Positions 22,908-32,200 of a stretch of 64,000 nt of DNA are shown piece by piece. Made by a program: the position numbers and the translations under genes. This DNA comes from Dehalococcoidia bacterium (GTDB lineage Bacteria > Chloroflexota > Dehalococcoidia > Bin125): the NCBI GenBank assembly GCA_022828105.1, contig JAJEJC010000007.1, positions 62,001 through 126,000 on the forward strand. Direction: 5' to 3'. How positions within the stretch are numbered: position 1 is the first letter of the stretch; the number at the start of each line of letters is the position of its first letter. The notes beneath the pieces are model-generated. The model was not told the origin of the DNA and did not search any database. It saw nothing but the letters and a program-made list of their open reading frames with translations.

Positions 22908-22936
22908 GATCTCCCCCCGCACGGCGGGGGGAGATC
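22908..22936. repeat. palindromic repeat unit (13-bp perfect stem), just after nrdJ stop; may act as terminator
   Basis: GATCTCCCCCCGC acg GCGGGGGGAGATC; same core as arrays at 28467 and 32038. Confidence 0.85.
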
Positions 22937-28269: not shown

Positions 28270-28394
28270 GTGGCGGCTCCCCAGGGTGTCGATCGGTTCG
28301 TCTGAATGCTACCGCAGCGTGGGCGGCGGGCACGGCGGAGCCGGGGTCGGGTGATCGGCCGGGAGGAAAAAAACGCGCGGGAGAGATTGGGGGA

Positions 28395-28835
28395 TTACCA
28401 GGGGTCGTCGTCTTCATCGGGTGGTTGGTCTTCGGGCGGGGAGCCCCCCTCTGTCTCTACGAGACATCTCCCCCCGCTGGAAGCGGGGGGAGAGGGAGAA
28501 GGGGCAGCGTGACATCTCTCTCCGCTGGAAGCGGGGGGAGAGGGGGAATGGGCAGCGTGACATTTCTCTCCGCTGGAAGCGGGGGGAGAGGTTCGGTCGT
28601 GGAGGTCTCGAAGGAGGTGGCGGGCGACGTCGTAGGGGTCGGTGGTGTGGTAGAGCCGGTGGTTGCGGCTGGCGTTGGGGTTGGGCGGGAACATCTCGCG
28701 GACGAGGGTCTTGAGTGCTTTGAGCTGCTTGTAGGCGGGGGCGTCGCTGTTGGCGGTTCGCCAGAGTCGGTCGATGCGGGCTCGGTAGTGGTAGGGGTTG
28801 GGCATGGGGATGCTCCTGTTCTGAGATGTACGCAT
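28395..28835 (-). CDS. hypothetical protein with three in-frame 16-aa repeats encoded by a palindromic repeat array
   Basis: N-terminus MPNPYHYRARIDRLWRTANSDAPAYKQLKALKTLVREMFPPNPNASRNHRLYHTTDPYDVARHLLRDLH; C-terminus SPPASSGEKCHAAHSP/SPPASSGERCHAAPSP/SPPASSGGRC. Start probably the internal MPNPYHY Met. Confidence 0.55.
   Translation of the reverse strand: MRTSQNRSIPMPNPYHYRARIDRLWRTANSDAPAYKQLKALKTLVREMFPPNPNASRNHRLYHTTDPYDVARHLLRDLHDRTSPPASSGEKCHAAHSPSPPASSGERCHAAPSPSPPASSGGRCLVETEGGSPPEDQPPDEDDDPW
28467..28589. repeat. three-unit palindromic repeat array, 48-bp period
   Basis: TCTCCCCCCGCT gga AGCGGGGGGAGA (28467-28493), then related hairpins starting at 28515 and 28563. Confidence 0.92.
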
Positions 28836-28885
28836 GTTCTAATGCTAACGAGGATTGGCTGCGGGCGGGGGGAGAGAGGCGAACG

Positions 28886-32037: not shown

Positions 32038-32200
32038 ATCTCCCCCCGCTCCGCGGGGGGAGATGGGAAGTGGAGTCGCTTCTCCCCTCGCTCTGTGGGG
32101 GGAGAGGGAAAGTGGAGCGGCCTCCTCCCGCGCAGAGCGGGGTGGGAGGGGCAGTGGGACCGGAGGGCCCTCTCCCCCGCACCAAGTGCGGGGGGTGAGG
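32038..32200. repeat. four-unit array of palindromic repeats, between selenoprotein gene and its partner
   Basis: ATCTCCCCCCGC tcc GCGGGGGGAGAT (32038-32064), then degenerate hairpins around 32080-32108, 32121-32149 and 32169-32200. Confidence 0.88.

Follow-up and report, generated by a model that had tools for sequence, protein, structure and literature searches.

The window, which here means the whole 64-kb stretch of DNA that was analysed, carries a minus-strand gene between an MFS transporter gene and an acyl-CoA dehydrogenase gene, and the parts of this gene are listed in Table 1. The minus-strand ORF at 28395-28835 translates exactly as quoted in the first-pass annotation of this DNA. 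Its frame is real, but the start has been revised: nearly all of 75 related copies keep the start MPNP, which lies at window position 28805, and the ATG at 28835 falls inside a LexA-like operator, so that the start was set at 28805 and the protein has 136 aa, not 146. Helices of the core were placed at residues 4-18, 24-38, 45-54 and 57-72, and AlphaFold2 modelled the core as a four-helix domain (block-mean pLDDT 86-97 over residues 1-70) and left the linker and the tip disordered. Downstream of the stop codon, the segment CGCGCGTTTTTTTC...GGCCCCGCCGTGCCC is kept in nearly all copies, and homology stops abruptly beyond it.

Table 1. Features of the gene and its flanks in the window, and SSB-domain matches in the same genome.
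Feature	Position	Strand	Evidence
Gene, 136 aa: four-helix domain, repeat-filled linker and acidic tip	28395..28805	-	conserved start and end
Core domain, residues 1-72	28590..28805	-	alignment, AlphaFold2, charge
Acidic C-terminal tip PDEDDDPW	28398..28421	-	conserved in family
Shine-Dalgarno AGGAG	28813..28817	-	sequence; AAGGAG-like in most copies
LexA-box-like operator AGAACATGCGTAC	28828..28840	-	motif match
-10-like hexamer TAGCAT (family TACNAT), adjoining operator	28842..28847	-	
Conserved 3' untranslated segment CGCGCGTTTTTTTC...GGCTCCGCCGTGCCC	28328..28394	-	68-copy downstream alignment
Repeat unit 1 SPPASSGEKCHAAHSP, 48 bp	28542..28589	-	TRF and ORF translation
Repeat unit 2 SPPASSGERCHAAPSP, 48 bp	28494..28541	-	TRF and ORF translation
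Repeat unit 3 SPPASSGGRCLVETEGG, full palindrome plus small second hairpin	28443..28493	-	folding; dispersed in genome
SSB-domain matches	G000:C10:142937-143750, G000:C6:46319-47142, G000:C8:13664-13975		

The in-frame palindromic 48-bp array described at first reading was recovered by TRF at 28463-28591 (period 48, 2.7 copies, 93% matches, score 223) and is the strongest of the three TRF arrays in the window. Its DNA is dispersed, with 52 matches in the own genome (2.74 Mb). In the fetched copies, to which the scoring of dispersed repeats was confined, the unit consists of CCCTCT, a strong hairpin (CCCCCCGC..GCGGGGGG), a second small hairpin and AGAGGGGGG, and folds as two hairpins with an outer stem closing both. 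The tetranucleotide GTAG is confined to the inner second hairpin and does not stand at the palindrome end. Outside the gene the unit also forms tandem arrays with periods of 40, 42 and 47, so that there is no tie to multiples of three there, and genome G003 contains the unit and no copy of the gene family; the repeat is thus independent of the gene. Two more SPPA-type hairpins of the same form lie in the window outside the gene, at 22912-22932 and 32041-32061. Searches of Rfam returned no credible match, only sub-threshold eukaryotic ones, on which ground a known RNA element was rejected.

The 75 distinct family copies were collected from all loci and fall within one genus of Chloroflexota (Dehalococcoidia). 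Searched with the first 82 residues, the own genome gave four matches and a relative as many as 24; matches came from 12 of 61 genomes, one of which lies outside the genus and is marginal. A profile search placed the family in 11 of the 15 genus genomes; 279 further genomes of the class yielded none. The named records of this kind belong to Dehalococcoidia/Chloroflexota MAGs, and no relatives were found in phage, plasmid or IMG/VR records, for which reason a phage or plasmid origin was rejected. All intact copies share one plan: some 70 residues of core (consensus MPNPYHFRARIDRLWRR..NPGYIRLKALNAIVRELFAP..RARLNH..YLATDPYDVARHKLRDLYD), then a hypervariable linker, then an acidic end, EEDDDP[L/W]-stop; the median net charge is +5 in the core and -9 in the tail. 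That the N-terminal part looked like a real protein is borne out by the conservation of the core in the 75 copies, by its confident fold and by dN/dS being lowest in the coding frame. Comparison of the core with Pfam, NCBIfam, PHROGs and PDB sequences, and with PDB and BFVD by Foldseek, was empty or gave E above 0.2; a known protein domain was accordingly rejected, and any function of the core is a guess, as it has no Pfam, NCBIfam, PHROG or PDB fold match. Distant relatives occur at L240-L247 and L250, several of them at contig ends in G014 and G006, including proteins of the type MGYREAMGDLSEIAKEGPAYVRVKALVTIVRETSPNNPRH... with a CPxCG motif and the end EEEDPH, and another beginning MSFSVNYETVM... 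and ending EEDDDPL.

In most family promoters stands CAGAACATACGTAC, which varies the LexA box GAAC-N4-GTTC found at the lexA promoters of the genus themselves, and TACnATCAGAACATACGTAC was found upstream of most copies, mostly 33-45 bases before the start. The pattern AGAACANNNGTNC has 15 matches in the own genome (2.7 Mb), four of which are the four family promoters. Boxes of the genus lexA genes (for example CAGAACGGACGTTCCGCAC or GGAACATCAGTACTG) lie about 170-320 bases upstream of the DNA-binding domain; lexA was picked out by pattern in all of 15 loci but L221, L227, L228 and L229, and the common form GAAC-N4-GTTC/GTAC was read by eye and by pattern. The family operator matrix gave modest scores on lexA promoters, with not every lexA box above background, because GTTC is preferred over GTAC in the second half-site of lexA; in the family box GTAC is preferred. 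A radical-SAM gene resembling spore photoproduct lyase has the box GAACATATGTAC. In several copies, mainly of G014, the box is altered or displaced. From the architecture shared by lexA, the family promoters and the radical-SAM gene, we conclude that the family operator is most likely a LexA box, and LexA control of the family is proposed with moderate confidence.

Other small genes stand behind similar boxes. Small HTH genes, some with a SEC-C motif, do so at L211:1518-2210, L125 (G006), L126 (G014) and L140 (G013), and such HTH/SEC-C genes occupy the same intergenic sites as the family in other genomes (at L125 and L126, the MFS/acyl-CoA dehydrogenase site). A second small family with a LexA box and without a Pfam match (L206:1558 on and L213:1559 on) has the sequence ...PPLPFTxDAIIDxLRHQATNGPAYVQHSATKALAHIKGLY..., and L152 (G013:C22) is a decayed remnant of the unit, in which another dispersed repeat, TCCGTCATTCCCGCG, adjoins the LexA-like box region and ATGCCCAAC without a gap.

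The homologous, perhaps mobile unit measures about 520 bp (window about 28328-28850) and comprises the LexA-box promoter, ribosome site, ORF and conserved 3' tail; its 3' end is sharp (CCGCCGTGCCC) and its 5' start lies near the operator. At the MFS/acyl-CoA dehydrogenase site G000, G013 and G001 carry the unit and G002 has it inverted, an unrelated HTH/SEC-C gene stands in its place in G006 and G014, and the site is empty in G003, G004, G007, G008 and G009. For 56 of 72 copies the nearest relative is another copy of the same genome, against 11% by chance. Neither terminal inverted repeats nor a target-site duplication were seen at the copies and empty sites compared, the flanks of which are too diverged for a target duplication to be recognised, and no transposase could be assigned to the unit. 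An integron cassette had been considered for the layout of a small ORF with a 3' segment, and visual inspection revealed no attC-like core. SOS control is common among mobile elements, and the operator might belong to another repressor or the family might be a selfish mobile one with no host role in DNA repair, a reading favoured by the amplification within genomes, the empty and inverted sites, the restriction to one genus and the occupation of these sites by small HTH genes of other kinds. We regard it as rather unlikely, since the box matches that of lexA itself and that of the DNA-repair-type radical SAM gene, and neither a transposase nor ends nor phage relatives came to light; selfish spread would in any case be compatible with LexA control.

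The linkers differ far more than the cores. At least one recognised repeat class occurs in 62 of the 75 linkers, the classes being SPPA[S/G]xGGRC..EGG (that of the window), PLPLGEGWGEG, APAQAGA and SPxGGGAP..GAEG, with a CPALDAG class nested within both SPPA and LGEG units; most of the other 13 copies keep core, operator and tip. The first-pass annotation had proposed palindromic elements inserting into coding sequence, which the comparison of the copies supports, or a gene extended by repeat capture; an extension at the gene's end does not hold, as the repeats sit between a conserved core and a conserved tip. Cores at least 90% identical in DNA, with some pairs 96-98% identical, bear different linker classes, and a core tree implies at least 15 switches between SPPA and LGEG, the tree being weak as it is built from a 207-bp core. 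Palindromes are also nested: CCTGCCCCGC..GCGGGG has been inserted into two other palindromic repeats, at their loops or joints, both in the linkers of L153, L167 and L182, where it is in frame in intact genes, and in the intergenic DNA of L124 and L125.

Many of the linker switches may be explained by recombination between copies instead of fresh insertion, and the linkers might even have been filled once in an ancestor and then shuffled by gene conversion, with no continuing insertion. The clustering of copies by genome noted above is expected from gene conversion, and the asymmetric LGEG class always has one frame and one orientation (frame in 22 of 22 units, orientation of the asymmetric tail in 21 of 21), although five of the six frames of the LGEG unit are open by our own reading. 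Still, this account is unlikely in view of the at least four unrelated dispersed palindromic classes that occur in linkers singly, in tandem and nested, and of the local character of the 48-bp tandem growth in the own genome, where the four sister copies have 3, 2, 2 and 1 array units and the array thus grows by 48-bp steps. Each class may have been captured long ago and then exchanged between copies.

Evidence for translation of the tail comes from the frame. Of the 65 copies with recognised tip DNA, 63 have it in frame, over 30 core-to-tip lengths; about a third would be expected if the process were blind to frame. This argues for selection on the tail at the protein level. The out-of-frame pair, L176 and L165, seem to be genes in decay, and L033, L035 and L161 lie at or near contig ends. 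The single frame and tail orientation of the LGEG-type units likewise favour capture in frame. The ending DDDPL or DDDPW is found in 60 of 75 copies and written in 11 different codon strings, so the tip is constant as protein and varied in its codons. Over the core, dN/dS (NG86, which is rough at the GC content of this genome) is lowest in the coding frame, with a median of 0.60 against 0.79-1.30 in the other five frames. Comparing homologues with and without the repeat tail had been suggested as a check, homologues ending before the repeats being held to speak against translation; in the comparison, homologues pass through differing linkers to a common EEDDDP[L/W]-stop, and with this common acidic C-terminus after diverse linkers they do not end before the repeats. 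By these comparisons the tail is under selection as protein, and the palindromic repeats, which leave the frame unbroken, apparently code for a flexible linker. Our confidence in the anatomy and in translation, judged from this comparative evidence, is high.

The palindromes could instead act as RNA or DNA hairpins (an attenuator, a stability element or a protein-binding hairpin), with translation incidental. The repeat strand of the array does fold strongly, its -53.5 kcal/mol comparing with -36.9 +/- 3.2 in shuffled sequences (z -5.1); in 27 of 68 copies the linker stem exceeds those of all 30 codon-shuffles in length, and most linkers contain a recognised repeat class. We consider such a function very unlikely, as the linkers without a recognised repeat mostly belong to otherwise preserved genes, the hairpins of different copies are unrelated and of unequal strength (the LGEG-type unit folds like its shuffles, z 0.0), frame and tip are maintained across the 30 lengths, and Rfam gives no credible match. 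It is hardly credible that the frame is open merely because GC-rich palindromes rarely contain stops and that the tail is untranslated or unimportant, for although several frames of such palindromes often lack stops and the opposite strand of this stretch also has long ORFs, the common C-terminus follows 30 linker lengths in all recognised copies except L176 and L165, and the coding frame has the lowest dN/dS.

The window therefore probably holds a real gene of a genus-restricted, amplifying family under LexA control, with a disordered linker that tolerates the capture of palindromes in frame. We propose that unrelated dispersed palindromes have repeatedly entered the linker, or passed between copies by recombination, and that only frame-keeping insertions and tandem duplications survive, since the tip is required and frame-breaking ones are lost. 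The array of the window then arose by duplication of a 48-bp unit of 16 codons to three copies, sister genes having one or two. DNA damage would lead to cleavage of LexA and production of the family proteins, expression and SOS induction being predicted from the operator; the basic helical domain might bind nucleic acid or a partner, and the tip might dock on a protein of DNA metabolism in the manner of an SSB tip, the repeat-filled linker serving merely as a flexible tether. SSB-like docking by the tip is possible though doubtful, and our confidence in the corresponding biochemical function, a basic helical domain tethered to a docking tip, is low. More speculative is the broader picture of a new class of SOS-induced small proteins that would modulate DNA repair through the tethered SSB-like tip and be encoded by self-amplifying units, the tether forming a continuing sink in which several families of selfish palindromes become protein; we consider it rather unlikely.

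Palindromes in frame are already known from the Rickettsia palindromic elements (RPEs) and from intragenic REPs; what is new is that the single linker of an orphan family is refilled repeatedly by several unrelated palindromes, under a LexA-type promoter. Whether intragenic palindromes are tolerated, selected or artefactual has been debated since the Rickettsia elements, and this family offers some 75 naturally replicated cases, spread over 12 genomes, in which the cores are matched, the repeats are of several unrelated kinds and the tip reports the frame. It is also a multicopy orphan family with a LexA box, apparently within a wider set of small genes that share its operator; the Chloroflexota genus that harbours it is represented here by metagenome-assembled genomes.

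The likeness to RPEs drawn in the first-pass annotation stands as regards palindromes in frame within protein genes, the host protein apparently still being made, and a passage of PMC3733652 cites the expression in vivo of RPE-decorated proteins. It need not extend to identity, and the insertion sites of the units appear to differ; RPEs occupy many unrelated genes, whereas here several unrelated kinds of repeat enter one linker of one Chloroflexota family repeatedly, and the comparison, drawn across phyla, is one of layout. As in intragenic GTAG/CGTC REPs, the repeats are short dispersed hairpins, mostly intergenic and in part within ORFs (PMC3733652), and such REPs are reportedly often found in DNA-repair genes (PMC3733652); unlike in GTAG REPs, the GTAG of the window's unit is internal and not a terminal tag. 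The RAYT (Y1) transposase PF01797 is absent from the own genome and from 14 of the 15 genus genomes, with positive controls and one weak Y1 match among the 15, and RAYT-driven REPs were rejected on this absence. PARCELs are dyad-symmetric DNA repeats that code for a protein repeat in mobile, variable ORFs (PMC2996958), and the present palindromic repeat likewise codes for a protein repeat; PARCELs are 25-residue amphipathic domains, whereas the units here are of 16 residues, rich in Pro, Ser and Gly, and predicted to be disordered.

SSB has a folded domain, a poorly conserved, Gly/Pro-rich, disordered and insertion-tolerant linker and an acidic, conserved extreme C-terminal tip (PMC7290993). 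The family shares this layout, in that 60 of 75 copies finish exactly in an acidic run plus Pro-hydrophobic, but lacks an OB fold (all-helical model, no Pfam SSB match), ends in DDDP[L/W] where SSB has a PF-type end, and has a linker of captured repeats. The own genome has five SSB-domain matches, in two close pairs and one single (Table 1), with unusual C-termini; those of its SSBs are DLPFE, DQPF, DSPF and SPV. Finally, in B. subtilis and Gram-positives the motif of LexA is GAAC-N4-GTTC (PMC3323433), and the same half-site architecture is found here at lexA and at the family promoters; unlike in the Gram-positive regulon, the family box favours GTAC as its second half, and the members are a new family of small proteins.
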